DNA from: Kiritimatiellaceae bacterium
GTDB taxonomy: Bacteria > Verrucomicrobiota > Kiritimatiellia > Kiritimatiellales > Tichowtungiaceae
Assembly: GCA_013141415.1 (NCBI GenBank)
Contig: JABFQY010000003.1
Location: 333,729 to 397,728 of the forward strand
Direction: 5' to 3'
Length of the DNA: 64,000 bases
Shown here: one piece after another, positions 6,856 to 27,817 of the stretch
Layout of the letters: each line of letters begins with the position of its first letter
Numbering within the stretch: the first letter of the stretch is position 1
Program-made: the position numbers and the translations under genes
The notes under the pieces: generated by a model
The model's input: the letters and a program-made list of their open reading frames with translations, nothing else
Database searches by the model: none
What the model was told of the DNA's origin: nothing

Positions 6856-7076
6856 GAGGCACCTCCGCAGGAAGAATTTTCACCACCCGCTTCGCTAGAG
6901 GAACAGCCGAGGGAGTCAGAGGGAGATTTCACCACGGAAGACACTGAAGACACGGAATCGACAGGGGGACATTCGGCGTGGAAGTCGAAACCAAATTCGT
7001 GCCAAAGCTGAGCAACAGATGCTTCGTCGCCATTGCGGGCAAGATCGAGAAGTTGGGAAAAGCGGGGATTATCCAC
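6849..7076 (-). CDS. Small hypothetical protein (75 aa), GTG start
   Basis: This is a 75-residue protein starting at GTG 7076, chosen because GGAGGC lies six bases upstream. A longer reading from 7124 would run through a tandem repeat and lacks a ribosome site. The first 32 residues (FSQLLDLARNGDEASVAQLW) are amphipathic and look like a folded helical unit. The rest is Ser/Gly/Cys-rich and partly encoded by a CACGGAAGACACTGAAGACA-type repeat. It overlaps the HTH gene by 8 bp and the ERCC4 nuclease gene by 7 bp, so translation is probably coupled. Function unknown. Confidence 0.5.
   Translation of the reverse strand: MDNPRFSQLLDLARNGDEASVAQLWHEFGFDFHAECPPVDSVSSVSSVVKSPSDSLGCSSSEAGGENSSCGGASC
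6928..6957. repeat. ACCACGGAAGACACTGAAGA repeat, in frame in the small gene
   Basis: Units of (A/C)AC(G/T)GAAGAC occur three times. They encode VSSVSSVVK in the 75-residue protein. This is a third repeat type in the same cassette, again without disrupting the frame. Confidence 0.55.
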
Positions 7077-7516: not shown

Positions 7517-8446
7517 TTACCAGTCGTCAAAATCCCCTTTGTTTATATGCTTTTTGAGCGTTACTTCGGACAGGGATACGTGCTGAGCCGCCTTTTTTCT
7601 GGCGGCACAAAAGCTCACCGCCGGATTTTTTTTATGGTATTCACGGATAAATTTTTTGGCCTCTTTATATTTCGGTTGGTAGAGATCGCCACGGGCTTTG
7701 CCACCCGCCGAAGCGGAACGGACTGTTGCCGCGCCACGGGCTGCGCCTGGAATGACGTTCTCTTCGATTTTGTCCAAGCGATGATCCAGATGCGTTTTTA
7801 AGGCGGTATTGCTGATGTCGGGCGGACGGCGCGTGGAACAGGTTTTCGGGCAGTCGCCAGAGAAGCCGGTTTTATTCAGCGAGAGACATTCGCGCAATGG
7901 AACGGTGGCAATGCCGCGACTATGCAGCAGCTCGGCGGCACCGGCATGATGGGATGGAAAAAGGACGCATCCAACCTTTTTGGGGTCGGCGTGTGGTAAT
8001 ACGGCATTAAGCGCCGCCGGGGCGGAATCTGCAAAGCAGGCGAAAACATGGCGCAACTCTCCGTTGCAATCGCACCGCCCGACAAAATCCAAATGCTCCA
8101 GTTGCGGGCCTGCGGCGGGCATCAGATTAAAGACACTGCGTAACGAATCACTGACAAGGTCAAGACTCGGCCGGTACGCCTGAACATCGTGCCAGTCCAA
8201 GACCACGTCCTCGAAGATTTCAGCGTGCTCACCTGTAGGAATGGCGCGGTACTTCTTGCCGGATTCGTGGACGGAAAGCTGGATGGACGGGTCGTCTGGG
8301 CAGGGATAGAAGTCTGCGCGTGTTCCGGAACAGGGAACCAAAAACGGCTGAACGGCCGGGAAAGCCCGCCCGAACACCTCCTCCCACCACGCTAAGGACT
8401 CCTGTGAGTTTTTGAATTTGAGCAGCTTTCGAAACGGGAATTCCAT
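7517..8446 (-). CDS. Unrecognised 309-aa protein, probable DNA-binding C-terminus
   Basis: I do not recognise this family. Residues 1-180 form an acidic-to-neutral domain beginning KLLKFKNSQESLAWWEEVF and containing several Cys and His (FYPCPDD, GRCDCNGELRHVF), perhaps a metal-binding fold. A hydrophobic GCVLFPSHHAG block suggests an alpha/beta unit. A linker around 215-250 is rich in Ala, Gly and Arg. The last 55 residues (YKEAKKFIREYHKKNP...SLSEVTLKKHI) look like a basic helix-turn-helix. The gene has a strong ribosome site (GGAGGT eight bases before ATG 8446) and its own terminator. It stands alone between the replication cassette and sspA. Its C-terminus suggests DNA binding; nothing shows whether it belongs to replication, regulation or defence. 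Confidence 0.6.
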   Translation of the reverse strand: MEFPFRKLLKFKNSQESLAWWEEVFGRAFPAVQPFLVPCSGTRADFYPCPDDPSIQLSVHESGKKYRAIPTGEHAEIFEDVVLDWHDVQAYRPSLDLVSDSLRSVFNLMPAAGPQLEHLDFVGRCDCNGELRHVFACFADSAPAALNAVLPHADPKKVGCVLFPSHHAGAAELLHSRGIATVPLRECLSLNKTGFSGDCPKTCSTRRPPDISNTALKTHLDHRLDKIEENVIPGAARGAATVRSASAGGKARGDLYQPKYKEAKKFIREYHKKNPAVSFCAARKKAAQHVSLSEVTLKKHINKGDFDDW

Positions 8447-8945: not shown

Positions 8946-10046
8946 ATGATTTATTTGGACTATAATGCGACAGGCCCAATGTTACCCGAGGTTCTGAATG
9001 CTATGTGTCCTTTTTTTTGCGAACAGTGGGCGAACCCCAGCAGTCCCTACGCCTTTGCAAAACAAGCTTCTGACGCTATCGAAATCGCAAGAAGTCATGT
9101 CGCATCGCTTATTGGTGCCAAACCAAATGAAATCGTTTTTTCGAGCTGTGCCACGGAAAGCAACCAAACGGTTCTGCATGGAGTCCGTGGCAAGGTGGCG
9201 ACCTCTACCGTGGAACACAGTTCCATTATAGATTTTCTGAAAGAACGAGATAACACTTGCTTTGTACCCGTCGATGGTGCCGGGCGACTAGATCTTGAAG
9301 CATTGGATTTCTCCCTGACCCAGCAACAGATAGAGCTAGTTTCTGTTATCTGGGCAAACAATGAAGTAGGTGTTATTTCGCCTATTGAGCAAACAGCCAA
9401 GATATGTAAAAAACACGGGGTTTTGTTCCATAGCGATGCAGTTCAAGCCGCTGGCAAAATAGAAGTCGATGTCAAAACAAACGAAGTCGATTACCTTAGC
9501 CTAAGTGCGCACAAAATATTCGGGCCAAAAGGTATTGGTGCGCTCTATGTAAGGGACGGTGCCCCATATAGACCCTTGCTAGTTGGTCGACAGGAGAAAG
9601 GCCGCCGAGGAGGAACAGAAGCTGTCCCTCTTATTGTTGGTTTTGGCAAGGCCGCTGAGCTTGCAAAAAAAGATCTCTCTGCACGCATGGGCCACACAAA
9701 AAAAATGCGAGACATGCTTGAGAACAGCATTCTTCAACAGATACCGGAGGCATATATCAATGGAGATAAAACTTGCCGCCTTCCCAACACGACCAATATT
9801 GGCTTCAAGGGAATCGATTCTGACACGTTCATCCAATTCCTGAGTACCCAAGGCATCATGGCAGCAAATGGCTCTGCCTGTAAATCTAGTGCAATTACGC
9901 CCTCACATGTCCTGACAGCCATGGGAAGAACCCACGAAGAGTCAAATGAGGCAATTCGCTTCAGCCTATCGCATCTCACTCAAGAAAACGATATTTGCTC
10001 TGCGGTAAGCATTTTGAAGACGCTCGCTGAATCACTTCGAGGCTGA
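8946..10046 (+). CDS. sspA: Cysteine desulfurase SspA (IscS/DndA family)
   Basis: This PLP-dependent cysteine desulfurase of 366 residues is expected to pass cysteine sulfur to SspD for DNA phosphorothioation. The start at ATG 8946 gives the family's canonical opening MIYLDYNATGP; a longer reading from 8892 adds 18 unrelated residues. Visible are the cofactor lysine in SAHKIFGPKG (Lys190), HSDAVQAAGK around the PLP-binding Asp, and the catalytic cysteine in ANGSACKSS (Cys312). It faces the sspBCDFGH operon and its last 15 bp overlap the end of sspH on the other strand. The family also includes IscS and NifS. The assignment to SspA rests on location beside sspD, sspC and sspB and on the absence of iron-sulfur assembly genes. 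No strong ribosome site is seen. Confidence 0.85.
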   Translation: MIYLDYNATGPMLPEVLNAMCPFFCEQWANPSSPYAFAKQASDAIEIARSHVASLIGAKPNEIVFSSCATESNQTVLHGVRGKVATSTVEHSSIIDFLKERDNTCFVPVDGAGRLDLEALDFSLTQQQIELVSVIWANNEVGVISPIEQTAKICKKHGVLFHSDAVQAAGKIEVDVKTNEVDYLSLSAHKIFGPKGIGALYVRDGAPYRPLLVGRQEKGRRGGTEAVPLIVGFGKAAELAKKDLSARMGHTKKMRDMLENSILQQIPEAYINGDKTCRLPNTTNIGFKGIDSDTFIQFLSTQGIMAANGSACKSSAITPSHVLTAMGRTHEESNEAIRFSLSHLTQENDICSAVSILKTLAESLRG

Positions 10047-13000
10047 TCCGTACAGCTTGGATATTTCAGTCACGAGAAAGACTAGCTGAGCATCACTAAT
10101 AAATGGCACCTGTGCATATACAATGTTGGGCTCTCCTTCTAGCTTAGCGGCAAGATGCCCTTTCCCCATTAGTCGCTCAGCGCCCTTCTCCCCGAGTGCT
10201 ATTTCGGACGTCCCTTCGCCGTCAACCCTTAGAACAAGCCGGTTCCCAAGTTGTGACCGAAGTTGTGGGGGCATGACCTGAGCTTCTGGACGTTGTGCTG
10301 CAAATATCAGGAAAATGCCAGCCGCTCGAGCTTTTACCCCCAACCGACCTACAGTTTTTGTTACGGCATCTTTATATTCATCGATCATCATCCATTCGGC
10401 AAATTCATCGTGGACGACCCAGATGTAAGGGAGTTTTTCAGATGCGCCTTTCTTAGAATTTAAGCCGGTAATATCTTTTACTCCGTTTTTCTTCAGCACC
10501 ATGTAGCGACGCTCCATCTCCCCAACAAGCGCCTCCACCCTCCCAACAGCTTTGGCCATGTCATCAATAACCCCTTCGCGAACATGCGGAAGTGCTGCCA
10601 GATCCTGGTAATCGACCATCTTAGGGTCGATAATGATAATTTCAGCATTGTCCGGTGAGTTTGTGGCCGCGATTCCAAGTACGATATTTTGGATAAGTAC
10701 GGATTTTCCACTACCGGTTGATCCCGCAACTAAAGTGTGCGGAGCATTCTTTTGGGGCGAGAACACAAGAGGGCTTCCATCTTCCTCTCGAACTCCTATT
10801 AGAAGAGAACAGTTCAGGGTTGTATCAGCGACATTCCATTTTTCCCAAATATTCTGAAGCATCAGGACTTCGCGTTCTGGACGAGCTATCGAAATAGACA
10901 CCACGCCGGGTTCCGCATTCACCGCCGTGATATTTAACCCATGCGATGTGAGAAATTCGCTTTGCCGCTTTCTGACCTGATCTACTGTCAAATTAGCGCT
11001 ACCCTCAAATTTTAATAGTGCGCAGTTTGGCGTTAATCGCGAGCTAACCAACTTTGCCTTTAGTTGAAATTGTTGCAACGCCCCCTTACATTCAACGGCT
11101 GTGTTTTGGAGCCACCCTTCAGCATCATTTATATGCTGCAAATTAACGGGAAAGGCGGCCTGCAGTTTTTGCACGAGGGTAGCAAATGCATTACCACTAC
11201 GGATAGCGGCAGGCTCGGCTGGTGTTGCGGGAGCTGTTTTAATCGGTTTTTTATCATCCTGCTTGTTGGCCAAATTCGTCGCCGTTTCGCCTGCCACTAC
11301 GGTTGAAGTTATTATTTCACCTGCCACTGTTGTCGCTCCAGCGTGCAACAGCTGCCAGGAGGGTCTTCCCCAGACATCTTCACCGGCATTGTCTTTGCGA
11401 ATTTGCCCGACAGGCCCTTCAGCAATATAAGCAGAGATAAGGCTGCGAACTTTCGCTCTCGAGAACACTTCCTGATAGGCATCATCAAGCTCTGCGACAA
11501 CAGAAAAATCGGAACACTCGGGGCTGTCCGAAGGGCCCGATATAAATACATGCGAATAACCCCGAACGAAAATTTCACAGCTTCCCTCGCGAAGAGCATC
11601 TCGCCATTTTGCTAATTGGGCCATCCTGTCGCTAGGCACGTGAACCCCCGTCATAACAAGATTTGAAAGACGAGAAAGCCATAAGTTTCGATCCATGCAT
11701 GCCGGTTCATCAAACAAGGCTTCTCGAATCCTTCGAACGGTGTCCCGCAACTGCTTCTGAGACTCTTTTCGCTTAGCGCTAAGCGATGAATGATCAATAT
11801 ATTTAGCCTCTGAAATAATGATGCCTAATTTAAACTTTCCGTCTTCAATAATTGGGCATAAAGCCATTAGATCGGCGATCTGCTCTTCCTTCTGCCCCAA
11901 CCACTCTGCGTAGTCATCGAGAAAATACCAGCCATGCAATGACGTGGCGCCTAGCTCATCCTCAATCAAATATTTACTGAGAACCACGCCCATCAACTCG
12001 CTGGCATTGCGGCCACGTTTAGCAGCTCTCAACACCAAATCCCCCGAGACTTCATTGGCATCCTCAATAAACCGTTCCACAAGACCGTTTAATATAGGTT
12101 CCTCTAAATTAAGATTCAGGTTGTTAATCCGCCCCTTCACCATAGCCTTCAAGAGCCCTAGCGGGGCTCTCGATGAGATCAGTAGATTTCGCCCCTGACT
12201 TGATGTTTGTTTATAGCGAATCACCCTGACCTGCTGATTCATCAACTGTCGGCGATCAAGTAATTCATCGTAATTGGCAACCCAGTTGCCAAGCTTGTGA
12301 ATCTCATCGAAAATATCGGCGGTTCGTGCATCATTGAAGTTAAGCTGTCGCGCTGGCAAAAGATGTTTCCCTTTTTCATGGAGATGCGGCTTCATGATAG
12401 AAGACAGGGCATTGATATATTTCCAGCCCGTTCTGGTTTGAACGGGACAAGTCAAATAAACAACCGATTTCATCTCATCGCGAGCGGACGGTTTACGCCG
12501 AGACCACTGTGGTGGGATAAGGTCTATGGCCTCAACAGGATTGGATTCGTCGGTATACCACTCCACCTCCGCATGCCGTGAAATAACATCCTGCAAGAAA
12601 ACGATATCAGTTGGTCTGCCATCTTTTGGGTCAGGCGTCGGAGCTTGATTTGCCATGATACCGATGCGCAACCGCGCCATAAAATCCGTTGCTGCTTCGC
12701 TTGCCACAAAAGAGTCTGAATTATCGTCAGAGGATTCGATTATCCGCTCATAAAGGTTCATCAATCGTCCAGCGTCGCGATGGCGCAAGACAATTTCACA
12801 TCTCATATCATCTTCATCTTCATGCAGTGCTGCGACTTGATCTACAAGTGCCACGGGAAGCCGCGAACAGTCACAATTAAAGAGCACGGTAGACAAATTC
12901 GCCTTCTCATGCGGATACAACTTGAGATATTTTTTTATCAGGTCCAGCACAAGCAGGGCCGTGGCTGAAGGAGATTCGTTGGTCTCATCCAATCCATCAT

Positions 13001-15266
13001 TTTCTGCCAAGGGGCTCTCGTGAAGGCTGTAATCAAGATGATGATCCGTACAAGCAAGCAGCTTGGGTGAAAAGGAATCCCAGCCCATTGCCATCTCCGG
13101 ATAATATGGATGCTTTAACCCCTCTGTCAGCTCACGGAAATAAAGCCGCGAATCGCTGAAATGAGTCTCATGGTTTGACAGCAACGCTTTGAGAAGACCG
13201 GAAATTTGTCTAATTTTTATCTCCATGGCAAAAAGTCGCAACGGATGCCACGGAGTAATAATCGCTGTTACTTTATCCCCAGAAATTTGTGCAGTTCCGA
13301 TTTCGAGCAGTGGCTTTAAAAGCAAATCTCTATTGCGATCGCCTTTTGCTTTTTCACAAATAATTCCAAGCAGATTCCCATAAGCTTCACATTGCGCACT
13401 GATTCCTTCAGCTAAAAACCCGTGTGTGCAAAACTCTTGAATTGACTGTTCATATGTCGTTTCAAAAGTTGACCAACAGGACTGAATCTCTTTTAATAGC
13501 TCATCGTTAATTAGGTTTTGGCTTCGCGCTTTACCTAAGTTTGATCCCCATATCAGCTTCAAATCGTTTTCTTTGCGATAAACGGGGACGAAAGATCCTC
13601 GGTCCTGCGCATAACTGGCATGCAAGGTTTGGGAGTTTTTTAAATCTATGGATTGGACATTGCCCTTTCCGCTTATGGTTTCTCTCGAGGCAAAGCAACA
13701 GAGGAACGGTCTATCAGAGAGTCGCCTCCAATCTCCTGGCAGCTCCGCAGCCACAGCATCGGGGTTAAATTGCCAGATAAGTTGTTTGGAAACGTTATCT
13801 TCACGGCCATTCAGATGTGTGATTTGGAGGTTTACAAAAAACTTAATGCGGAGTGCGGCTTTTGATGCAGAATGGTTGAGATGAGGGTTAGTCTCTCTAC
13901 GCCATGCGTCGAGGTGCGATTTGAAATTAAAAAGCTCTCCTGTATCCCAGACGACGCCATTGCCTAACAATGCAGGTAAGCCCTGATAACGGAATGCAAA
14001 ATATTCCCCCGCAGCAAAATTCAATTTTTTCAAATCCTGTTTGGTTCTACGATCCGAGGTGATGCAGAGCGATTTGCTTCTAACCGTTTCTGAATGATCA
14101 AATAATCCTTCAAGACAAATAACCAGCCCAGCTAAAAAATCTTCGCATTCGACCGGCTTCCCGAAAATAAATTGATCCCATTTTGTTTTAAGAAACCCAT
14201 CTTCCTTTAGTTCTAACCGATGGTTTTCATAAAAATCCTCATCGGGGGCATCTGCGCTCGATGTCGTTCGTCTTTTGGACAATGTTTCTAAATATTTCCG
14301 CTCTTCTTCGCCTAACAGAATTGCGTCACGCTCATCATAAAATTCTAGTGTTTTTGCCCCGAGATTAAATTTTTCCTTCTTCAGCCCATCAAAGAGAGCG
14401 CTAATGCCTTCCCATTCACACAGGCTCAATTCATATGCAGCCCCATTCCACCCGCTATCAGCAGAGATGAACTCTTTAATGCATGAATGATATTGCTGAA
14501 TTATGTTGTCCTTCACTTTATCAAAGGTCGTCTTGAGTTGATCTTGGGTCAGCAATCCTTGCGACGGTGTGTATTTAAAAAGGTAACAGGATCGCTGACG
14601 AATCGCTTTAGCATACAGTTGCTTCCAACGGGAAATATGCCCGGCATTTTTGTCATTCAGCACATTAAAAAATGTCTTATCTCTGGGAATTCTCAGGGTG
14701 GGCAAGGCTAGGCCTAAAGCCTCGAGCAACGGCTCGCCTTCTTCGAGAATTTGCCGCCTAGTTTCAATCACATAGCCAGCAAACGCCTCTAGCTGATATG
14801 TTCTAACCTCCAGCAGGCCCCGAAGCGCCAGCGCCCACCAGCCTTTTTGTTGTTCATCGCAACCTATTTCCGCATTAGCGTAATCGACCCAAAGGCCGGG
14901 ATGCCCTAAGAGTTGCGATGAGCCAATGGGCGTCATATCCTTAAGAGATTGTTGCTCATCGTCACCTGTTGTCGCCAATAAGAGAGCATCTCTTTCACAA
15001 TCTGCATTTCGAAAAAATGTTGTCCTTTCGTCCGTGAGAATATTCTCGGGCAACGAACACCCTTTGACAAAATTTCGAGGGAGCTTAATTTCTATTTTTT
15101 TGCTTAATACTGAATCGTTTAATATCGCTTGAGCAATCGCAGCCGTCTGTTTTGCAGATAAGCAATCAAGCAGATATCTTGCAGTCCCATCACTGCCATC
15201 CGCTGCCTCTAAACGATCTTTCAGATACTGGATTGCGACTTTTCCGATTAATTCGTCATTCGTCAT
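10032..15266 (-). CDS. sspH: SspH (DptH-like), FtsK/HerA-type ATPase of the restriction module
   Basis: This very large protein of about 1744 residues ends in an FtsK/SpoIIIE-type motor: Walker A AGSTGSGKSVLIQN (near residue 1514), Walker B IIIIDPK, then VVHDEFAEWM and FAAQRPEAQ. The long N-terminal region (over 1300 residues) has no motif I recognise, as is usual for DptH/DndH and SspH. These proteins work with the F and G subunits against DNA lacking phosphorothioates. ATG 15266 is preferred over 15323 because AGGAG precedes it with correct spacing. It follows sspG by 17 bp and is last in the operon. Its 3' end overlaps convergent sspA by 15 bp. The SspH rather than DptH name follows from the sspB-type modification genes; the two families are related. 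Confidence 0.82.
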   Translation of the reverse strand: MTNDELIGKVAIQYLKDRLEAADGSDGTARYLLDCLSAKQTAAIAQAILNDSVLSKKIEIKLPRNFVKGCSLPENILTDERTTFFRNADCERDALLLATTGDDEQQSLKDMTPIGSSQLLGHPGLWVDYANAEIGCDEQQKGWWALALRGLLEVRTYQLEAFAGYVIETRRQILEEGEPLLEALGLALPTLRIPRDKTFFNVLNDKNAGHISRWKQLYAKAIRQRSCYLFKYTPSQGLLTQDQLKTTFDKVKDNIIQQYHSCIKEFISADSGWNGAAYELSLCEWEGISALFDGLKKEKFNLGAKTLEFYDERDAILLGEEERKYLETLSKRRTTSSADAPDEDFYENHRLELKEDGFLKTKWDQFIFGKPVECEDFLAGLVICLEGLFDHSETVRSKSLCITSDRRTKQDLKKLNFAAGEYFAFRYQGLPALLGNGVVWDTGELFNFKSHLDAWRRETNPHLNHSASKAALRIKFFVNLQITHLNGREDNVSKQLIWQFNPDAVAAELPGDWRRLSDRPFLCCFASRETISGKGNVQSIDLKNSQTLHASYAQDRGSFVPVYRKENDLKLIWGSNLGKARSQNLINDELLKEIQSCWSTFETTYEQSIQEFCTHGFLAEGISAQCEAYGNLLGIICEKAKGDRNRDLLLKPLLEIGTAQISGDKVTAIITPWHPLRLFAMEIKIRQISGLLKALLSNHETHFSDSRLYFRELTEGLKHPYYPEMAMGWDSFSPKLLACTDHHLDYSLHESPLAENDGLDETNESPSATALLVLDLIKKYLKLYPHEKANLSTVLFNCDCSRLPVALVDQVAALHEDEDDMRCEIVLRHRDAGRLMNLYERIIESSDDNSDSFVASEAATDFMARLRIGIMANQAPTPDPKDGRPTDIVFLQDVISRHAEVEWYTDESNPVEAIDLIPPQWSRRKPSARDEMKSVVYLTCPVQTRTGWKYINALSSIMKPHLHEKGKHLLPARQLNFNDARTADIFDEIHKLGNWVANYDELLDRRQLMNQQVRVIRYKQTSSQGRNLLISSRAPLGLLKAMVKGRINNLNLNLEEPILNGLVERFIEDANEVSGDLVLRAAKRGRNASELMGVVLSKYLIEDELGATSLHGWYFLDDYAEWLGQKEEQIADLMALCPIIEDGKFKLGIIISEAKYIDHSSLSAKRKESQKQLRDTVRRIREALFDEPACMDRNLWLSRLSNLVMTGVHVPSDRMAQLAKWRDALREGSCEIFVRGYSHVFISGPSDSPECSDFSVVAELDDAYQEVFSRAKVRSLISAYIAEGPVGQIRKDNAGEDVWGRPSWQLLHAGATTVAGEIITSTVVAGETATNLANKQDDKKPIKTAPATPAEPAAIRSGNAFATLVQKLQAAFPVNLQHINDAEGWLQNTAVECKGALQQFQLKAKLVSSRLTPNCALLKFEGSANLTVDQVRKRQSEFLTSHGLNITAVNAEPGVVSISIARPEREVLMLQNIWEKWNVADTTLNCSLLIGVREEDGSPLVFSPQKNAPHTLVAGSTGSGKSVLIQNIVLGIAATNSPDNAEIIIIDPKMVDYQDLAALPHVREGVIDDMAKAVGRVEALVGEMERRYMVLKKNGVKDITGLNSKKGASEKLPYIWVVHDEFAEWMMIDEYKDAVTKTVGRLGVKARAAGIFLIFAAQRPEAQVMPPQLRSQLGNRLVLRVDGEGTSEIALGEKGAERLMGKGHLAAKLEGEPNIVYAQVPFISDAQLVFLVTEISKLYGSASK

Positions 15267-15283
15267 AGTAGCTCCTGAAGCTT

Positions 15284-16819
15284 TTAATCCAGCGTTGAGA
15301 AAGGGTTGAGAACGTAAGCGCATCCGTCAGACAGCCGCTTTAGCAACCCGATACTTGAAAGGCGCTGCTCGAGGCGTTCAGAGTTGTTTTTGAATTCTTT
15401 TTTATCAAAATCGCATTTCACCACTTCGGCATAGTACTCCGCTTCATTACTGCCCAATACGATGCCATATTTATTGAGCACCTCGCTCAAGAACAGCTCT
15501 AACTCCATGCGTTTCCCAACCGTGCTTAATACGATGCTCTTAAGAAAAGCATCCGTTGGAGCATAACGAAGTCTATTGGTACCCCGCTTTGAAATCAGGC
15601 CTATTTCGCGGCCATACACCCTGTGAATATTTGCGAAATGCTGGGAGTGCCTCTGGCGTGCCGCATCGCGAAAGGCCTGTAGTAGATCGTCAGGGTGAGG
15701 AACGCCGACATAATCCATCTTTTCTCGAGGCCACAGGACAGTGTTTTTCAGAATCTCAAGGCATTCGTTATAGGGGTCGCTACCGCCCAGCGCTTCCCTC
15801 CAAATCTCGCTTTTTTCGATATCCGCGATATATGACTCAACCGCCTTAGCCGAAAGAACGTTGTTGTCCTGATATGATTCAACAGAGAGCTCTCGCACCA
15901 TTGTTTTTTTAGGGGCAACAATTTCGGAAATAAACAAACTGGGGCGGTCATCGCCAATGATTTCTCGAGCAACCTGCTGCTGATAGCGCAAAATATGAAA
16001 CCCAGCGACTCGAACCAGATGAGGAATAAGATCATACGAAGGTGCGTCCAGCTTCAATATCGTGATCCAATCTTTGGTTACTGCATCAAATACCGGATGT
16101 GAACGATAGGGAAGAAATCCGCCTGCCTTTTCTTTTGGCAGAGGTTCGGATGGCGGCTGTAGGCACTTAATTACAGTGTTCCATATCGTCTCGTGCTGAA
16201 ACAGGCGCTGTTCCAAAAGAGCAGAGAGCTCTGTCTTGTCGGCAGCCCGACAAAACATCAAATAAAGCAGCTCCCCCGTACGCCCAAAAAATCGTCGATC
16301 ATTCGATCTAGCGGTCTTGTCCAGATCCTCAAACAGGGCTTCGGGGCAATAAGGGAAAACAAATTTCGAAGTCCAGCGCTTATTGCTATTCACTTCCAGG
16401 CAGGTGGAGTGGATCACCTTTATGACTTCAACAAACTCGGCGAAGCTTTCAAAATGATTCTTCAGGTATGAGAAGTCGGGATTAACCAATCCCTGCTGCG
16501 ATTCCTCCATCTCTTTCAACCACAACTGCCACTGCTGGGCATCTCCCGAGGTTTTTTTACACAGCTGCTCCATTTTGGTCAGCGGATAGTTAAACAGGAT
16601 ATTACGCAAATACAGCCGATGGGCTGGCACGTAAGACAATGTGTTGTATTCCTGCTCATCAAATATTTTCCCGCTCGAACGCACATAGGCGTAAACATTC
16701 ATGAATTCCAGGTACACAAACCAGGGTGTTTGCTCATCATAGAGCCGATGCCCCCAGATGGCCTCATCTACCCACATAGACGGTTCAGGATTTTTGTTTT
16801 TTGGCTCCAGTCGTTCCAT
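15284..16819 (-). CDS. sspG: SspG (DptG-like) restriction module subunit
   Basis: This 511-residue soluble protein has no catalytic motif that I can see. It is assigned by position: the middle gene of the conserved F-G-H trio, starting 2 bp after the sspF stop, so translation is coupled (the AAAAGG ribosome site overlaps the end of sspF). The N-terminus (EPSMWVDEAIWGHRLYDEQT) and following helical region are typical of DptG-like proteins, whose biochemical role is not settled. The length is in the range expected. It is followed by sspH after 17 bp. Without its neighbours I would not have named it. Confidence 0.7.
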   Translation of the reverse strand: MERLEPKNKNPEPSMWVDEAIWGHRLYDEQTPWFVYLEFMNVYAYVRSSGKIFDEQEYNTLSYVPAHRLYLRNILFNYPLTKMEQLCKKTSGDAQQWQLWLKEMEESQQGLVNPDFSYLKNHFESFAEFVEVIKVIHSTCLEVNSNKRWTSKFVFPYCPEALFEDLDKTARSNDRRFFGRTGELLYLMFCRAADKTELSALLEQRLFQHETIWNTVIKCLQPPSEPLPKEKAGGFLPYRSHPVFDAVTKDWITILKLDAPSYDLIPHLVRVAGFHILRYQQQVAREIIGDDRPSLFISEIVAPKKTMVRELSVESYQDNNVLSAKAVESYIADIEKSEIWREALGGSDPYNECLEILKNTVLWPREKMDYVGVPHPDDLLQAFRDAARQRHSQHFANIHRVYGREIGLISKRGTNRLRYAPTDAFLKSIVLSTVGKRMELELFLSEVLNKYGIVLGSNEAEYYAEVVKCDFDKKEFKNNSERLEQRLSSIGLLKRLSDGCAYVLNPFSTLD

Positions 16820-16821
16820 GG

Positions 16822-18663
16822 CTACCTTTTTATCGTAATAGTTTTGTGTTCAAGCTTCCCGTTGTCCGAGTTCAATATCTGCAACTCAACACAATTATCG
16901 CCGATAGAAACCTCGCTTGATTGCAGGTCATTGGCCTTCGCAATCAAGCGGCTTTTGAATGCCTGGATGTCTTCGTAACATTCTTTTGAAAAACTTGTCG
17001 GGAGCGCCCCCTCTGAGGCCACACGCGAAAGGAACTCAAATCGCACGAGATTCAACTCGAGAGAGATGAAGTCATGTAGAGAAAAATACACCTGAAGATC
17101 TATCCGTTTAGTTTGGTCGTTAAGCGCAATCGAAATTCGCTCTCCTTTGCTCGGTTGTACGGATATGTGTCCCAAGTACACCCGGCTGATTTTCGCTTGA
17201 GAGTGGCTTCCGCTGGTCGCGAGATAAAGCCTCCGTTCATCATCAACCAGCATTCCGGTAAAGACGCGGTTGAGACCCTTAATCAATCGGCCAAGAATGC
17301 GGCGATCTACCCCGCCACCTGACATAAGCAATTCACATACATCTGAAACATATTCGCCTGCGTGTTTGAAGACAGTGAGCTCCCAAAACTTAAACTCCTT
17401 CTCTTGTTCTCTAGGAATCTTAAAGAAAATCCCCCGTCGCTGCCGCACAAGCATCTCGAGAAAAGCATTCGCAGAATCTTCGTCCTCATCACCGGCTTCG
17501 ACATATTGCTTTCGAGCCATCTGATAACTGGCGTCGGCACCATAGAATGAGTCAGACCCGATCAAAGAGTCGTATTCGCGTTTTACAAACTCGTCGTACT
17601 CGCCATAGATAAGGATATTGTCGATCCGATTATTGGTCTCATAACCGATCTGGAGCCGGTTAAAGTAGTTAAATATGGTGATCGAACTTCTACTGCGCTC
17701 CGAAAGGTTGCCGCCAAAAATGTTGTTGTATATTGCCCCTTTAGAAATCTCGCCTGATGCTATGATTTTAGGAACATCAATAGCCCGCATGAGATTTTCA
17801 TGAGCAGACGGGTGTCCCAAAACAGCATTTGTAAGAAGAAGCAGGATTTGTCGAATAGGCAGGTGCAAATTGTTATAGTCACATAGTTCAAAGAGAAGAT
17901 GGATGCGTTGCTGCATCAAGGGCTGTTGGAGCAATTCATAATTTCTCCGTACAGGGCACTGATTCCCAAAAAATTCATCTGGCCCGGCGTTGAGCGCATA
18001 GCACTCTTTCCATCCAGGATGATCTAAAAAAGCCTTAACAGCCCGGTCAAACAGCTCTGCAGAACTTCCGCGACTCAGGTTGAAGAAATCAAGCTCGACA
18101 CCTTTTAATAATTGAAGATCCTCTACCAGTAACTCTTCAATCGCATCCCGAGCCTTAACCACCACATCAGATGAATCAAGCCGACGAAGCGCCTCAATCA
18201 ACTGTCCATCATTTCCCGCAATCATAAATACATCTGATGGTTTTTTTGCGAACAACGATTCACAAAAAACCCCCATGAGTTTCTTTTTGTGCGGCACGTC
18301 ACTCCAGGACGTCCCCTGTGGAGGCGCCCAGCCGCTCAAGTCCCGAATGAAATGGAGATTTAGAGATCTCGATACGGGAAGTAAAAGATACGGATCATCG
18401 GAGGCCCACAGAGCAGCATCTCCGCCGAGACTGTTCCAAACCTCTCGGCAAAGATGTGTTTTGCCGTCTCCGGCAGTCCCTGTGAGAATTATCGAGCGAA
18501 GCTGTTCGCGCTTGAAACATTCAAAAACGCGTTGCTGAAATGGATGCTCAAATAGGATTGGATCAATTTTATTCCGTTGAGCCGACCGCTGGATCGTCTC
18601 GTCGAACATGTTGTCATTACGAGGTATTGGCCCATATTTGCGGAGAAAGTTAATCCATTTCAT
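16822..18663 (-). CDS. sspF: SspF (DptF-like) P-loop ATPase of the restriction module
   Basis: This 613-residue protein has one clear P-loop, TGTAGDGKTH (about 61-70), preceded by a short helical N-terminus (PFQQRVFECFKREQ) and followed by a long helical region, as in DptF. It is the first gene of the F-G-H restriction trio. The expected role is ATP-driven attack on phage or other DNA that lacks phosphorothioate marks, together with SspG and SspH. It starts 13 bp after sspD, so modification and restriction subunits share a transcript. An AGGGA sequence about 11 bases before ATG 18663 may be the ribosome site. Naming as SspF rather than DptF follows from the SspBCD genes upstream. Confidence 0.78.
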   Translation of the reverse strand: MKWINFLRKYGPIPRNDNMFDETIQRSAQRNKIDPILFEHPFQQRVFECFKREQLRSIILTGTAGDGKTHLCREVWNSLGGDAALWASDDPYLLLPVSRSLNLHFIRDLSGWAPPQGTSWSDVPHKKKLMGVFCESLFAKKPSDVFMIAGNDGQLIEALRRLDSSDVVVKARDAIEELLVEDLQLLKGVELDFFNLSRGSSAELFDRAVKAFLDHPGWKECYALNAGPDEFFGNQCPVRRNYELLQQPLMQQRIHLLFELCDYNNLHLPIRQILLLLTNAVLGHPSAHENLMRAIDVPKIIASGEISKGAIYNNIFGGNLSERSRSSITIFNYFNRLQIGYETNNRIDNILIYGEYDEFVKREYDSLIGSDSFYGADASYQMARKQYVEAGDEDEDSANAFLEMLVRQRRGIFFKIPREQEKEFKFWELTVFKHAGEYVSDVCELLMSGGGVDRRILGRLIKGLNRVFTGMLVDDERRLYLATSGSHSQAKISRVYLGHISVQPSKGERISIALNDQTKRIDLQVYFSLHDFISLELNLVRFEFLSRVASEGALPTSFSKECYEDIQAFKSRLIAKANDLQSSEVSIGDNCVELQILNSDNGKLEHKTITIKR

Positions 18664-18676
18664 TTAAGCACATTCC

Positions 18677-19486
18677 CTATAAGTGGCAGATCAAGCAGCC
18701 GGGACTCGAAGTATCTTCAACTTCAATCTCCCCAAAAGTTTCAACCAATCGTTTATTGCCCTTTCGAGATTTTAACCACTGCTGCCGTTCAGCATATTTT
18801 CGCTTAATCTCTTCCTGTAATTTAGGATCGCGCAATGCTGAAATCGGCATGTCATCCATCCAGGTAAACAGCGTGCCGGTCTTCTGATCTTTGCGCTCGT
18901 ACTTCTCTGCTTCGGCAAATTGTTCAGGGTACTGTTCTAGCAGGCGTACCCATTCATACTTCGATTGGTAGAAGCAGAAGAAGCAGCCGGAATGAGACCT
19001 TCCCCAACTTAGATAAGGCGGCATGCCAATGCCACTTTCTGTCAGAATGCGCATCACGCCATCAAAATCGATGCCATCTTCTTTGAAGGGAAATACGGTT
19101 GTTAGATTTGGCTTAGCGCTAATGAGCCCAGTACGATCTTCATCGGCACGAATACCGATATAGCTAATCACAGGGTCATTACCGATATATTCTTCGTAGG
19201 GCTTGAGCTTGAGAAGCTTGGTGCACCAGCGGGCTTTTGGGGATGGGAGGTAATTGCCGAACACATCCAGCCAGTGGTCAAAATCTCTCTTGGCATTAAG
19301 ATAAACGATTTTTTTACCGAGAAATGCCTCTACAAGAGCCAGGTACTCATAGGTTTCCTGCAGTTCTTTGCCGGTATCACAGAAAACATATTCCATTCCC
19401 GGAACCTTGTCCCTCATGTACAAGGCCAGCGCCGTGCTGTCCTTTCCCCCGGATAGGCCGCAAATATGTCGTACTTGATGGTTCAT
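18677..19486 (-). CDS. sspD: SspD (DndC-like) PP-loop sulfurtransferase
   Basis: This 269-residue member of the PAPS-reductase/ATP-pyrophosphatase family probably activates the DNA backbone and transfers sulfur from SspA during phosphorothioation. The PP-loop SGGKDST is at residues 12-18. Conserved cysteines are WCTKLLK (near 89), GCFFCF (near 170-173) and a C-terminal GCLICHL, an arrangement fit for an iron-sulfur cluster as in DndC. It is shorter than DndC (about 500 residues), which agrees with the shorter SspD type. It lies 7 bp after sspC and 13 bp before sspF. A CysH-like assimilatory reductase is unlikely given the company. Confidence 0.85.
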   Translation of the reverse strand: MNHQVRHICGLSGGKDSTALALYMRDKVPGMEYVFCDTGKELQETYEYLALVEAFLGKKIVYLNAKRDFDHWLDVFGNYLPSPKARWCTKLLKLKPYEEYIGNDPVISYIGIRADEDRTGLISAKPNLTTVFPFKEDGIDFDGVMRILTESGIGMPPYLSWGRSHSGCFFCFYQSKYEWVRLLEQYPEQFAEAEKYERKDQKTGTLFTWMDDMPISALRDPKLQEEIKRKYAERQQWLKSRKGNKRLVETFGEIEVEDTSSPGCLICHL

Positions 19487-19493
19487 CCAATAC

Positions 19494-22400
19494 TTAGCCC
19501 TTCAGATTGTCCCACACTGCCTTAGATGCGGCGACTAGCGCAAGATCGCCGTGCTCTTTTATGAGCTTTTGTATTGTCTCTTGCAGGGCCGAAATTGCAC
19601 CGCGATCACTTACCGCCGCTGTAAGAACCTGCTTCTTTTCGGTTCCGTCAGGCAGGGTGACGCATAGCCGCATAGATCCGCTTTCGTAATTACCTTTTTT
19701 GTCAAAGGCAACGCCTTCCGTGCGGACAAAACGGCCAGTTAGCTCCGAAAGGTGCTCATTGAATATCTGCTCATCCTGATCTGCCCATTTTTCGGGCGGC
19801 TTGGCGGCAATCATACTGGCCACAGAATCCAGCCAGTCGTTGTCGGATAACAACGAGTCTTTTAGTCGAAAACAAAACGCTTTTAGCCGGGCTTCTGCAA
19901 CAAAGGACGATAATGCGTCTGCCCGTGCTCCGATTTCCTTTCGGAAGTCGCCAGCTTTCTTTTTTGAATAACCAAAATTTTCGATCAACGCATTTTTCAT
20001 TCGTTCCTGCAACGCCAAGTAACACCCCCTCAGCTCATCGATGGCCTGTGAAAGCGATCGGGCGTACTGCTTCGCGGTGTGCCCATTTTTGTCGTCTGGC
20101 CCAATCGGCTCATAGCCACAAGCAATAGGTAGCAACTCGAATAGTAGCTTCAAGGGGTCTCTTGCGTCCATAAGAGCGTTTCGAACCGCTACAGCACTCG
20201 GTGAAAGTTGTTTTGTTTTCTGAGCGTATGGGCACAGTCGCGCCACGATGACGCACAAGGGACGAACTACATCCAGGAGGTCTGGCTGCTCCCTGCTGGC
20301 ATTAACGTTAAGTACCCGGGCAAGTTGTTCGAACGCAACAATGCGAAGGCCTTCGACATTGCAGTATTGAAACTCAAACGTTTCGGGTCTTTTAGTTAAA
20401 CGTAAAAATTCGGCTCCGGAAAGCTCGCTAAGAAAGGTGCCGTTCTCATAACAAGCAATATTCCGCCTGTGTATTACGTAGAAGACTGCAAGCAACAGGG
20501 GAGCCAAGCCTTCCCGAATGCCGAACGGAATCGCTGCTAACTCATTTAAAAGAAGGCTTACACGAATAGGTCTGTCAGGTTCGCCCTTCAGTCGTGATTC
20601 AATGTGAGTAAAGGTGGGCAACAATTTTAAGCGGTCATTCGGTTCGCTTGGAAGAACAAATCGACTCATCGTCTCAGTTTCTACATGAAGCCCTCCGTGC
20701 TGAAGGACGGACATGTACATCGACATTTCCGGCGGCTTTTTCTCGGGATCCATTCCTAACAATCGCTCGTTAGGTGCTTCCAAGACGCGCTCTATTAGGC
20801 GCATTCTTGCGGCCGCCGCTGCAGAACTGATATTGCGGCGATTAATTAACTCATTATGAACAATGGGCGCGGTCCTAAATAAACGGTCGCAGATGTCCGA
20901 AAGCGTGGATAACAGTTCGCGACCAGATGCAATCTCTAGAGGTTTTCCCTTCCAAAAGAATTTTAGAGAAAAAGATTCGCCTAGATTGTCGAGGCCGATA
21001 ACTTGACTGATCGCCTCATCCATGGCCTGTTGCGCTGTCGCCATTTTCCTGGAAACGGTTTCTCTTCCATACCTGTCGCCGTTCAATTCTGGAGTGTTTG
21101 TTGCTATCCAATTCCAAACCTGAACTTCTCGAATAAATGGCGACAGACTCTGCAGTTGCCCGGGAATAGCCACCAAATATTCGCTGCGCGCCTTAAACCC
21201 AGCTGACTGGGCCATCTTGATCGCATCAGCAACAGCTTTTTGGTTTAAGCACAGGGGCGTCAGTATAATTCCATCGCCGTCTTCCTTGGGTAAATTAACG
21301 GGATCTTCCAAGTCCTTTGGATTACAGAAAACGACCGAAAAGTATCTTAGATTCCCGGTCTTGATGTAGTGCCTCCTTGCCACCAAATTTGTGTTGTCGA
21401 GATGCGCTCGGATAAAGTCTGCCGGGCTTTTGATCGGGCCGATCATGGACTCTGCTGTTTTCTGAGCACGTTCAATATCTACGCTGATATGAGGCCACAA
21501 ACACAACCCGCCAGAAGCGCCCCGATCGAATAAGACCCGCTTCCCAACGTCCGACTTTAGAAGGCTGATGGCCTTATGGACATTAGCATCGTCTTTTCTG
21601 CCGGTTAAACAAAGTGAAACCGATTCCACCGTGGGGGTCAGGTCGCTGCTATTCAGCAGATTTAAAACACCGACTGTTTTGACAATCTGGGTGTGCAAAA
21701 GGTTGTCTGAGATAAACGAGCTAACCATCGAATTAATTGTGGTCCAATGGGTAGAGGTATACACCGAAGCTAGGTGATGGCCTAAGTTCGAATGGATGTA
21801 GTCATAAAGATGATGAATTCGGTAGAACTGACCGTCACATTCTTTCAGAAAAGCAAGCAACGCAAACGGCTCGCTTCCAAATAAAAAACTGAAAATAGAC
21901 CTCTGATTTTGCCCAAAACGATGCAAAATTCGGCTCATGATGGGCAACACGCATGGATCAAGGGGAGAAATTCGAGGCGCCTGCTTTTCCAGTGAGGTAT
22001 AACTTGCAGTAGATCCATACCAGCCAAGCTGAATAGCTTGTTTCATGGTTTGCTTGGAAGAGGCCATATCTGTTTGCTTAAGCTCGCCGACCGGAACATT
22101 GAGCGCCTCAGCGACCAACGCTGCTGTTTGTTCCATCGGGTGCTGAAAAACGATTTCATCATATCGCCCGGCAACTTTGTCCCACTCGCGCTTAGCGGTT
22201 AATCCCAGCGCGGCGGCATACGCCCCAAACCCCTGATGCAGGATACCTATAACAAAAAGCGGCGTCTCCCCGCTGCGGGACGCTTCTTCAGCCAGTCGTT
22301 GCATTAAAAAAACATCACTTTCGCCGGCGGCTGAGGCGGCGTGCTCTAAGGATTTCCCGAGTTCGTCAATAATGAGTAACAGTCCTCGACCCTTGTTATC

Positions 22401-22919
22401 TGCAGATATCCGGGATTTAACCAATGCGATCAACTTAAGCACATCCCCGTCGTTTATTTTCTCCTGTTTCAACAGGGCGTTGATTTTGCAGGGTCCTTTA
22501 CCTAACCCGGACGGATAGTGATGCTCTAATGCGCTACTTATGCCTCGACGGATTGTTTCTCCTAATGCCTCTCTTGCTCCTGTTACGAGAACGGGTAAAA
22601 GCCGAGGCGTCGAGACCCCAATCGTTGTGTAGGCCAAACGGGATGAAAGGCCTTTGGGGATTTTTTTTGCATCTCCGGAAAACCAATGGGCCAACAAGAG
22701 AGCGAAGCTTGATTTCCCAGAACCATAGTCCCCTATGATGCGCCAGCATCTCTGACCGGATCCCTTCTTCAGCCCATTTGCTATTCGCCGAAGACAGTCC
22801 GTCGCAACATCCGTTAACACATATGAGCTCAACGCCTCTGGATCATAAAAGTCCCGTTCCAGGTTGGTGGACCTTAAAAAACGAAGCGGGGGTTTGATAA
22901 ATTGTTGCTGCTTCTTCAT
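19494..22919 (-). CDS. sspC: SspC-type large P-loop ATPase of the modification module
   Basis: This 1141-residue protein has Walker A IGDYGSGKSSFALLLA (about 62-77) and a Walker B LLLIIDELGKSLE (about 180-192), followed by a conserved LFVIGILHQGFGAYA segment typical of STAND/ORC-like ATPases. The remaining 900 residues have no recognised enzymatic motif. In Ssp systems the large ATPase sits between SspB and SspD and is needed for phosphorothioation, probably for site recognition or remodelling. It overlaps sspB by 4 bp (ATGA) and ends 7 bp before sspD. The order B-C-D is diagnostic. It is not a DndD (SMC-like coiled-coil) protein: the P-loop context and lack of long coiled coil differ. Confidence 0.8.
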   Translation of the reverse strand: MKKQQQFIKPPLRFLRSTNLERDFYDPEALSSYVLTDVATDCLRRIANGLKKGSGQRCWRIIGDYGSGKSSFALLLAHWFSGDAKKIPKGLSSRLAYTTIGVSTPRLLPVLVTGAREALGETIRRGISSALEHHYPSGLGKGPCKINALLKQEKINDGDVLKLIALVKSRISADNKGRGLLLIIDELGKSLEHAASAAGESDVFLMQRLAEEASRSGETPLFVIGILHQGFGAYAAALGLTAKREWDKVAGRYDEIVFQHPMEQTAALVAEALNVPVGELKQTDMASSKQTMKQAIQLGWYGSTASYTSLEKQAPRISPLDPCVLPIMSRILHRFGQNQRSIFSFLFGSEPFALLAFLKECDGQFYRIHHLYDYIHSNLGHHLASVYTSTHWTTINSMVSSFISDNLLHTQIVKTVGVLNLLNSSDLTPTVESVSLCLTGRKDDANVHKAISLLKSDVGKRVLFDRGASGGLCLWPHISVDIERAQKTAESMIGPIKSPADFIRAHLDNTNLVARRHYIKTGNLRYFSVVFCNPKDLEDPVNLPKEDGDGIILTPLCLNQKAVADAIKMAQSAGFKARSEYLVAIPGQLQSLSPFIREVQVWNWIATNTPELNGDRYGRETVSRKMATAQQAMDEAISQVIGLDNLGESFSLKFFWKGKPLEIASGRELLSTLSDICDRLFRTAPIVHNELINRRNISSAAAAARMRLIERVLEAPNERLLGMDPEKKPPEMSMYMSVLQHGGLHVETETMSRFVLPSEPNDRLKLLPTFTHIESRLKGEPDRPIRVSLLLNELAAIPFGIREGLAPLLLAVFYVIHRRNIACYENGTFLSELSGAEFLRLTKRPETFEFQYCNVEGLRIVAFEQLARVLNVNASREQPDLLDVVRPLCVIVARLCPYAQKTKQLSPSAVAVRNALMDARDPLKLLFELLPIACGYEPIGPDDKNGHTAKQYARSLSQAIDELRGCYLALQERMKNALIENFGYSKKKAGDFRKEIGARADALSSFVAEARLKAFCFRLKDSLLSDNDWLDSVASMIAAKPPEKWADQDEQIFNEHLSELTGRFVRTEGVAFDKKGNYESGSMRLCVTLPDGTEKKQVLTAAVSDRGAISALQETIQKLIKEHGDLALVAASKAVWDNLKG

Positions 22920-23827
22920 TTATAAATCCTTTTCAGCAGCTTCCCAGAAATTTGTTCAAAATCGGTAAACTTTCTTTTCAAAGACCGACTAGTCGATGAG
23001 TCCGTGAATACAAAATACTCACTGTCATCAGTCAAGCCTGCCAAACGCGCCTGTATGTCATCATCGGTGAGTTTGAAAACCTGTCCGGGGCTCCCCTCGC
23101 TACTGGTAATCTGACTGAAAGATAGGGTCGTTTCGTCAGGGGAGGTCTTCCGCCAATAGTCGTTCAGGCAATAAAGAAAAAGCGCCTGGCTAATCTCGGG
23201 TTTTTCGCCTCTGCGAAAGGCATAAATTGGCTCTTTTCTACCAGAAGACAAATCTCGCTCTCCGCCATATTCGATCAACCGAAGCTGAACGAGGGGGCAG
23301 TCCAAATTATCTTCGACCACTTTGTTTTTGTGACCGCGAGTTGGAACGTATGTGTGAAAGAAAACCTTCACAAGACTGTCGAGTGAGTTCGCAGATAGCT
23401 TATGTTCCTCCCCTAACTCTCTCCGTATCATAGGAACAATGACCGCGCCCGCCATCTCTGACTCCTGCCAGCGATTGAGAAGGTAATGCCAGACATAAAG
23501 AGGCTCTGCGGCCGCCGAAAGACGCCAATGAAGCAACCACAGCGTCTGGATGTCCTCAAGATATGGATCCAATCCGCGATCTGGGTCTAGCAGCATTGTG
23601 CTAAACGGAGTCACCTGAAGTGAGTTTTCGCCGTCTGGCTCAATTATCCCGAGAAGAGTTGCCCAAAATCGGATGGAGCGAACCATGTTTTTCCCAACGC
23701 CCAACTCAACCATAGCCCGATCTTCGTCGGAAAATATTTTATCGTCAAATTTCACCGCCTGATATGCTTTTGGAAGCCACGCATATCGAAAGGCAAATGT
23801 TTCATGTCCTGAAAACTTATAATTCAC
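22916..23827 (-). CDS. sspB: SspB, DUF4007-family DNA nicking component of phosphorothioation
   Basis: This 303-residue protein shows the DUF4007 signature: FSGHETFAFRYAWLPKAY at the N-terminus and LGVGKNMVRSIRFWA (about 43-57). In the Ssp pathway SspB provides the nicking activity required for single-strand phosphorothioate insertion. It is the first gene of the leftward operon, with AAGGTG five bases before ATG 23827, and overlaps sspC by 4 bp. The 155-bp divergent region to the MerR-like gene holds a 17-bp palindrome that could control it. Family assignment is firm; the biochemical role is taken from the family. Confidence 0.85.
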   Translation of the reverse strand: MNYKFSGHETFAFRYAWLPKAYQAVKFDDKIFSDEDRAMVELGVGKNMVRSIRFWATLLGIIEPDGENSLQVTPFSTMLLDPDRGLDPYLEDIQTLWLLHWRLSAAAEPLYVWHYLLNRWQESEMAGAVIVPMIRRELGEEHKLSANSLDSLVKVFFHTYVPTRGHKNKVVEDNLDCPLVQLRLIEYGGERDLSSGRKEPIYAFRRGEKPEISQALFLYCLNDYWRKTSPDETTLSFSQITSSEGSPGQVFKLTDDDIQARLAGLTDDSEYFVFTDSSTSRSLKRKFTDFEQISGKLLKRIYK

Positions 23828-24498: not shown

Positions 24499-24585
24499 GT
24501 CTGCGCTCCAAATAGTTTCCAATACCACTGGCTTAAAAGCATGTTTTCTTGTCAGCCGCTTTGCCCCGTTGTAGCTTGCCTGCAA

Positions 24586-25146
24586 ATGCCGATTATAAAA
24601 ATAGTCTCGGGCGGGCAAACCGGCGTAGATCAAGCGGCACTGGCTACCGCCATCCATTGCAGTATTCCACATGGTGGGTGGTGCCCAAAGGGGCGAAAGT
24701 CTGAATACGGCGTTATTCCCGCACAATACCACCTCAAAGAGACGGGTTCCGCTGATTATCTGGTTCGCACGGAGGCAAACGTGGTGGATTCAGATGCCAC
24801 TTTAATCATCACGCCGAAACGACTGACCGGCGGCTCCCTGAGAACCCTTGAGTTCTGCATGAAGCATAGGAAGCCGTGGCATCATATTGCTTTTGAAACT
24901 GTTTCTTCTCGTCAGGCCGCCGAAGAGGTCAAGGTGTGGCTCAACGGTGATCCGGAAATGAACGATTATGAGGATTACGAAGCATGCCCGCCCAAGCAGT
25001 GTGTTCTGAATGTTGCGGGCACTAGAGGTTCGAAGCTGACTGTTCACGAAAACTTAATCATAAACCTGCTTCTCGACGTGATATGGAAGGTGAATGGGAC
25101 AATGTTTTATCCGCTGACCGTTCCGCACCCTGATTGTATTGATTGA
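24586..25146 (+). CDS. SLOG-superfamily protein (YpsA / putative molybdenum-carrier-like)
   Basis: This 186-residue protein starts at ATG 24586 with PIIKIVSGGQTGVDQAALAT, a Rossmann-type nucleotide-binding loop typical of the YpsA and 'putative molybdenum carrier' families. Further signatures are GWCPKGRKSEYG and DATLIITPKRLTGGSLRTLEF. A longer reading from 24541 adds 15 Cys-rich residues with no support. SLOG-fold proteins bind nucleotide-derived ligands, and some serve in defence signalling. Here it sits 8 bp before a nuclease gene and downstream of a regulator, next to the Ssp locus. Ligand and role are unknown; the molybdenum label is historical. Confidence 0.75.
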   Translation: MPIIKIVSGGQTGVDQAALATAIHCSIPHGGWCPKGRKSEYGVIPAQYHLKETGSADYLVRTEANVVDSDATLIITPKRLTGGSLRTLEFCMKHRKPWHHIAFETVSSRQAAEEVKVWLNGDPEMNDYEDYEACPPKQCVLNVAGTRGSKLTVHENLIINLLLDVIWKVNGTMFYPLTVPHPDCID

Positions 25147-25153
25147 GGCTATT

Positions 25154-25789
25154 ATGAAAAAGACGCTTTGTTTTCTACTGCCGCTTTTATTCACCCTCGT
25201 AGCATTCGGATACCCCGCCAAGGTGGTCGGCATCTCAGACGGGGATACCTGCACGGTGCTGACCGCAGACAACCAGCAGGTAAAAATCCGGCTGGCCGGC
25301 ATAGACACCCCGGAAAAGTCTCAAGCGTTTGGCACTAAAGCCAAGCAGGCTCTTTCCGACAAGGTGTTCGGGCAAACCGTAGAGGTCAAAGAGCAGTCCA
25401 AAGACCGCTATGGTCGAACGGTGGCCGATCTGTACCTTGGCGCACGCTGGATCAATCTGGAAATGGTGGCCGAAGGCTGGGCGTGGCATTACAAAGCCTA
25501 TTCAAAGGATTCCCGGCTGTCCGATGCGGAACAGGCGGCGCGTTCGCGGAGTCTGGGGCTGTGGGCTGACAAGGCTCCTCAGCCTCCGTGGGAGTTCCGC
25601 GCCGATGGCAAGGCTGAGACTCGGGCGCAGCCCCAAACTTCGCTGCAACAGCCCGTAGAAGGCGGCTATTGGCTGAATACGAACGGCAATACCCGGCACA
25701 ACAGCCGGTGCAAGTATTTCAATAACACGAAGAACGGACGGCCTTGCTCCAAGGATGAAGGCAAGGCGTGCGGGACATGCGGCGGCTGA
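25154..25789 (+). CDS. Secreted thermonuclease (staphylococcal nuclease family)
   Basis: This 211-residue protein starts at ATG 25154 with a signal peptide (MKKTLCFLLPLLFTLVAFG). The SNase domain follows: VVGISDGDTCTVL, IRLAGIDTPEKSQ, DRYGRTVADLYL (catalytic Asp, Arg and Glu-type positions) and GWAWHYK. The C-terminal 40 residues form a small Cys-rich module, NTRHNSRCKYF...GKACGTCGG, seen at the end of many bacterial SNase proteins. It degrades nucleic acid outside the cytoplasm. It is the last gene of the rightward trio and ends one base before the stop of the convergent small gene. Export makes a direct role in intracellular defence unlikely. Confidence 0.88.
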   Translation: MKKTLCFLLPLLFTLVAFGYPAKVVGISDGDTCTVLTADNQQVKIRLAGIDTPEKSQAFGTKAKQALSDKVFGQTVEVKEQSKDRYGRTVADLYLGARWINLEMVAEGWAWHYKAYSKDSRLSDAEQAARSRSLGLWADKAPQPPWEFRADGKAETRAQPQTSLQQPVEGGYWLNTNGNTRHNSRCKYFNNTKNGRPCSKDEGKACGTCGG

Positions 25790-27814: not shown

Positions 27815-27817
27815 AGA

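Follow-up and report, generated by a model that had tools for sequence, protein, structure and literature searches.

A complete SspABCD-SspFGH locus as probable exchangeable cargo of a capsid-encoding integrated element of Kiritimatiellota

In the characterised system, SspABCD places single-strand phosphorothioates (PT) at CCA, while SspFGH damages DNA that lacks PT and poisons cells in which the mark is missing (PMC8092258). Here we describe a locus of this kind in a window of 64,000 nucleotides (contig JABFQY010000003.1, positions 333,729 to 397,728) from a Kiritimatiellaceae bacterium, where it lies on an integrated element. It shares with the locus of Vibrio anguillarum FF-93 the six proteins SspB, C, D, F, G and H, the Walker A motif of SspF, the FtsK/SpoIIIE-like C-terminus of SspH and the lack of SspE (PMC8092258). 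It differs in that sspA is linked to the other genes, whereas IscS is used in FF-93, and in its position on a capsid-encoding Kiritimatiellota element. Judged by its sequence it appears to be, as a defence system, an ordinary member of SspABCD-SspFGH.

Defence cargo on satellites is established, and P2 and P4 carry short systems only (PMC9122126). In a DefenseFinder census Dnd was almost never found on prophages, and size was suggested to exclude Dnd, BREX and DISARM (PMC9090908). The element shares with the P4 and P2 hotspots the presence of variable defence genes at a fixed slot of a phage or satellite, but the systems there are short and large ones are lacking, whereas systems of 14–16 kb occupy the slots here (PMC9122126). 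The MulchRoom and MiniFlayer satellites likewise have their own capsid and packaging genes, but carry no replication genes and rely on virulent phages of Streptomyces (PMC10690885). In gene content, as far as the definition of Alqurainy et al. 2023 relayed in PMC10690885 goes, the element is like capsid-forming phage-inducible chromosomal islands (PICIs) in its integrase, terminase, portal, protease, major capsid protein (MCP) and replication genes of its own; it may also share the connector, and no tail genes were recognised in it. Compared with that same definition, the present element is large (41 kb, with about 19 kb of cargo), has PolA-based replication, no HNH and no helper found, and belongs to another phylum. 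We consider, with a probability of about 0.7, that the complete locus is an exchangeable cassette of a 40.8-kb, tRNA-Arg-integrated, capsid-forming element of satellite type in Kiritimatiellota, analogous to capsid-forming PICIs.

The SspABCD-SspFGH locus

The Ssp proteins were searched against PADLOC models and Pfam, and the phage-type proteins of the element against PHROGs (phrog identifiers below). All seven Ssp open reading frames (ORFs; A–D and F–H) are complete, with no stop inside, and each matches its own PADLOC model over nearly the full length. Pfam agrees for SspA (aminotransferase V), SspB (DUF4007), SspD (PAPS reductase) and SspH (FtsK/SpoIIIE). The genes, in window coordinates, are:

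22916..23827, minus strand: SspB (DUF4007), predicted DNA-nicking subunit of the modification; PADLOC 6e-103, PF13182, solved SspB 6juf/6lb9 1.7e-31
19494..22919, minus strand: SspC ATPase; PADLOC 0; Walker A GDYGSGKS at residue 63
18677..19486, minus strand: SspD; PADLOC 3e-107; PP-loop SGGKDS at residue 12, paired cysteines 168/171 and 264/267
16822..18663, minus strand: SspF; PADLOC 7e-209; Walker A GTAGDGKT at residue 62
15284..16819, minus strand: SspG; PADLOC 5.3e-183
10032..15323, minus strand: SspH with C-terminal FtsK/SpoIIIE motor; PADLOC 0; Walker A GSTGSGKS at residue 1534
8946..10046 (longest ORF from 8892), plus strand: SspA cysteine desulfurase; PADLOC 8e-122; pyridoxal phosphate lysine K208 in SAHK, catalytic Cys330 in the GSAC loop

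Inspection of the motifs found the active sites of SspA, SspC, SspD, SspF and SspH intact. The start of SspA at 8946, as given in an earlier note on this DNA, is favoured over 8892 because desulfurase homology begins only at residue 19–21 of the longest ORF in the alignment. The genes sspB-C-D-F-G-H run leftward, and sspA lies tail-to-tail with sspH. The junctions of −4, +7, +13 and +2 bp at B/C, C/D, D/F and F/G agree with the maximum of 17 bp claimed earlier, which does not hold for the overlap of −40 bp between sspG and the longest sspH ORF, a value that depends on the chosen SspH start. With 47% G+C the Ssp cargo is set off from the element core (54%).

No GmrSD_N domain (DUF262, PF03235) was found anywhere in the genome, while the same search was positive in 8 of 14 control genomes, which bears out the reported absence of SspE. 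In the profile comparison that the earlier note had proposed, B, C, D, F, G and H each scored far better with the Ssp models, which speaks against a Dnd system of DndB-E plus DndFGH. Sequence searches of the PDB gave no relative for SspF or SspC. A structure of SspG predicted without an alignment reached a pLDDT of 36, too low to show where the nuclease of SspFGH lies.

The carrier element and the exchange of its cargo

The window belongs to a contig of 630 kb in a draft genome of 2.2 Mb in 7 contigs. A 48-bp direct repeat (48/48 identical) of the 3' end of a tRNA-Arg gene was found in copies 40,722 bp apart, which delimits an element of 40,770 bp whose left border is 12.9 kb left of the window. 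The element encodes its own MCP, protease, portal and terminase, as capsid-forming PICIs do. Its features are:

27818..27894, minus strand: tRNA-Arg(tct), integration target
27817..27864: right attachment (att) repeat, 48 bp, identical to the left copy (L006:7095-7142 = C3:320823-320870)
26312..27748, minus strand: tyrosine integrase; PF00589 1.3e-14, phrog_1 2.3e-36
25139..25789, plus strand: staphylococcal-nuclease-like protein, possible cargo between Ssp and integrase; PF00565 2.7e-27
24541..25146, plus strand: circularly permuted YpsA (cpYpsA)/SLOG protein, possible cargo between Ssp and integrase; PF12694 1.1e-42
7517..8446, minus strand: o309, conserved in part of the sister elements (Pfam scan, element comparison)
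7069..7404, minus strand: excisionase/MerR-like regulator; phrog_66 1.4e-05
6397..6855, minus strand: ERCC4-type nuclease (Pfam, PHROGs)
5277..6374, minus strand: DUF2800/PD-(D/E)XK exonuclease (Pfam, PHROGs)
4468..5262, minus strand: o264, conserved core protein of the element family (element comparison)
2422..4371, minus strand: family A DNA polymerase (PolA); PF00476 5e-29, phrog_17 1e-87
299..2404, minus strand: primase/helicase (DUF5906; Pfam, PHROGs)
C3:331200-331643, left of the window: terS-like
C3:330094-331371, left of the window: terL
C3:328977-329891, left of the window: PycTIR
C3:328274-328969, left of the window: PycC
C3:326138-327298, left of the window: portal
C3:324844-325965, left of the window: head maturation protease
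C3:323362-324297, left of the window: MCP
C3:322810-323205, left of the window: probable neck adaptor

The earlier note described the SspABCD-SspFGH locus as complete and carried by an integrative element, and the sequence supports every testable part of this: the integrase adjoins the tRNA gene, and the att repeats, together with the multi-copy relatives described below, support the suggested mobility. What that note did not contain is that the element is phage-derived and capsid-encoding, with its structural genes left of the window, that it has a second defence system and that Ssp is exchangeable cargo. The second system is Pycsar, consisting of the cyclase PycC and the cNMP-binding TIR effector PycTIR between terminase and portal (L006:14546-16163 = window −5454 to −3837).

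The strongest evidence for Ssp as a passenger cassette of capsid elements comes from G203, a complete genome from a different family of the phylum. Here sspBCDFGHA is found within an apparently tail-less element that has an integrase at tRNA-Glu and 25-bp att repeats of that tRNA, spaced by 37.1 kb. It also encodes a primase, terminase, portal, protease and MCP; the MCP is followed by an ORF of ~104 aa and then by sspB. A sibling element at 2.78 Mb of the same genome aligns with it at 89–97% up to just past the MCP. Similarity is then lost over 16.2 kb (Ssp) versus 14.4 kb and regained at 93–98%. The insert of the sibling encodes a DISARM/Hma-like cassette (L115:4967-16559) of helicase, methyltransferase and DUF499/HmaC ATPase, whose interior holds a CBASS cyclase and a 2TM effector, and a third copy, in genome G157, has HmaABC-like genes behind the MCP. 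The sibling pair is a natural cargo exchange. The two elements acquired Ssp separately, because the Ssp sets of the window and G203 are only 29–54% identical, differ in position and in sspA orientation, and the window's SspFGH is nearer to that of a further genome, G306 (52–56%), than to that of G203.

Relatives of the MCP with 68–95% identity were found in genomes of Kiritimatiellota and others labelled as Planctomycetes–Verrucomicrobia–Chlamydiae (PVC), a Pontiellaceae strain included, and in IMG/VR contigs. They occur in 14 of the 97 related genomes (own genome included), with four copies (T1–T4) in G009, a single-contig complete genome of the same genus, and the same core is present in four IMG/VR contigs of 18–20 kb. 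The host phylum, earlier inferred, is made firmer by the fact that the nearest relatives of the element are from Kiritimatiellota. The gene order excisionase, ERCC4, exonuclease, o264, PolA, primase, terminase, portal, protease, o150, MCP, adaptor is conserved. T1, T3 and T4 each end, no more than about 9 kb from the MCP, with an integrase at a tRNA, and no tail gene was recognised in them. The att repeats of T3 are 51 bp long with one mismatch and lie 33.9 kb apart; the left att of T1 and T4 was not found. The slot equivalent to that of Ssp holds in T3 (L058-L061) a type III methyltransferase, a restriction enzyme and a SNF2 helicase (SNF2/HKD-type). In the closest viral contig, L027, a DUF4143 ATPase (PADLOC PDC-S01) is found at the terminase-portal interval, where the window's element has Pycsar. 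The element family thus has at least two cargo slots, since both the Ssp/type III restriction-modification slot and the terminase-portal slot vary among sisters.

Some further features were noted. A 21-bp sequence with the palindrome AGTTTGATATATCAAACTTTT is present twice in the element, at window 26260-26280 and about −7641, and is a possible operator. A sister element in genome G025 carries a gene for a 1703-aa LRR/PKD/CARDB/CBM96 protein between portal and protease (L066:7116-12227). No HNH endonuclease was found among the element proteins scanned with Pfam, a scan that leaves a few small ORFs outside. An integrative and conjugative element was also considered and dropped, as no conjugation gene was present among the element proteins searched.

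Satellite, short-tailed phage or remnant

No tail genes were recognised in the element by PHROG- and Pfam-type scans, in which several of its proteins match no family. Between MCP and att there are only three ORFs of 131–198 aa, the largest coding-strand ORF there being o198, of 198 aa. The family of the first of these follows the MCP in 22 of 22 regions compared (single-linkage clustering). The AlphaFold model of a close homologue (pLDDT 85) best matches the Mu neck subunit (probability 0.92–0.96, with weak E-values of 0.28–0.66) and, lower down, Sf6 gp7 and P22 gp4. This ORF may tentatively be taken as a neck adaptor, a reading consistent with its place among the genes.

Whether it is a satellite or a phage with a short tail, the carrier derives from a phage and encodes a capsid. 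We lean slightly towards a satellite in need of tails. That the carrier is instead a complete temperate phage, with a podovirus-like tail that is very short or went unrecognised and with Ssp as lysogenic-conversion cargo, is rather unlikely, although PolA, primase, terminase, portal, protease, MCP and adaptor are all present and the podoviral proteins are among the weak matches of the adaptor. Moreover, o198 has a fibre-like homologue of 635 aa with YadA-like repeats in L030, which leaves room for a minimal short tail, and a longer relative with a collagen-type fibre gene is found in G008. Against such a phage, only the three short ORFs lie past the MCP, and in the G203 element only the ~104-aa ORF stands between MCP and sspB, up to which point the sibling is identical in layout; neither a spike nor an ejection protein nor a tape measure was recognised. 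The o198 homologue and the proteins without family assignment also weigh against a capsid-forming satellite, as do three other points. No empty integration site was found in five same-genus contigs. No helper phage was found either: PhageMin_Tail (PF10145), a model that may not cover the phages of this phylum, had no match in the own and four related genomes, and the 319-aa protein encoded behind the MCP in the G008 prophage had none outside G008. Finally, the element is about twice the size of the ~20-kb core of the sister elements and may exceed the capacity of the capsid.

A decayed prophage that lost its tail region and into which Ssp was inserted later, as into a dead remnant, is improbable. 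The draft state of the genome and the inferred nature of mobility would allow it, but the att repeats are intact, the reading frames are open throughout, and the tail-less layout is repeated in T1–T4, in P19, in four viral contigs and in the distantly related G203 pair. More improbable still is that the Ssp genes are an epigenetic modification locus only, with SspFGH inactive. Most sspBCD loci in a published survey are without both SspE and SspFGH (PMC8092258), yet here the Walker motifs of SspF and SspH are intact, and the reading frames of SspF, SspG and SspH are conserved with both G306 and G203.

Two conserved post-MCP proteins (L027:11437-12408 and homologues) start with apparent signal peptides, which is odd for virion proteins. 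The second of them is the one with the 635-aa form in L030.

Proposed function and distribution of Ssp

By analogy with the published system, the locus would both modify and restrict DNA. SspA would supply sulphur and SspD activate phosphate, SspB would nick and the ATPase SspC help to place single-stranded phosphorothioates in host DNA, and the SspF-G-H complex, with SspH as FtsK-type DNA motor, would damage incoming unmarked DNA. As cargo of a capsid-forming satellite the locus would thereby shield the host and the element itself from competing phages, and a resident prophage, marked along with the chromosome, could be spared as helper. The element would excise, move and be packaged in its own capsid, and would use the tail of the helper. 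Were the modification genes lost, SspFGH could attack the chromosome, and the self-preserving (addiction) role proposed in the earlier note is plausible in view of the reported toxicity of SspFGH without phosphorothioation (PMC8092258). As a tentative extension, tail-less capsid-forming satellites might be widespread in PVC-group bacteria and specialised in very large modification-based defence systems (Ssp, type III restriction-modification, DISARM/Hma-like), the self-mark sparing the resident helper prophage while outside phages are blocked.

Defence systems of 14–16 kb are found in fixed slots of capsid-encoding elements, Ssp twice and independently, with a natural swap between siblings in one genome. 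Very large defence systems may therefore travel between bacteria in satellite-type particles. This would be a concrete vehicle for phosphorothioation systems, which could help to explain their patchy distribution, and makes testable whether self-mark defence favours the helper over competitors. Our literature search found no paper joining Kiritimatiellota with prophages, or Ssp with capsid-forming satellites.

SspG of this type was found in 3 of 388 genomes of the phylum, with no further genome among 273 from the order of G203, and neither 50,697 phage records nor IMG/VR contained a match to it. SspB had just three weak matches among phages, all in unannotated faecal phages. Ssp thus appears not to be common on sequenced phages. 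That capsid elements carry most of the phylum's Ssp loci was considered and rejected, as this holds for 2 of 12 DUF4007 loci (the own genome and G203) among the 388 genomes. G306 and the nine further loci have no capsid genes of this kind nearby, some of their contigs being short. Capsid elements are one route among others for Ssp.

Next to a tRNA-Pro in genome G015 (L152-L153) lie an sspB, 72% identical to that of the window, and an sspC that is shorter and 65% identical; further ssp genes are missing nearby, and the pair may be what is left of an element. In G306, sspD and sspF are separated by two genes, of 787 and 661 aa (L090:4034-8379), which may encode an extra Ssp partner; the 787-aa protein has HSP90-like and histidine-kinase-like (GHKL) regions.

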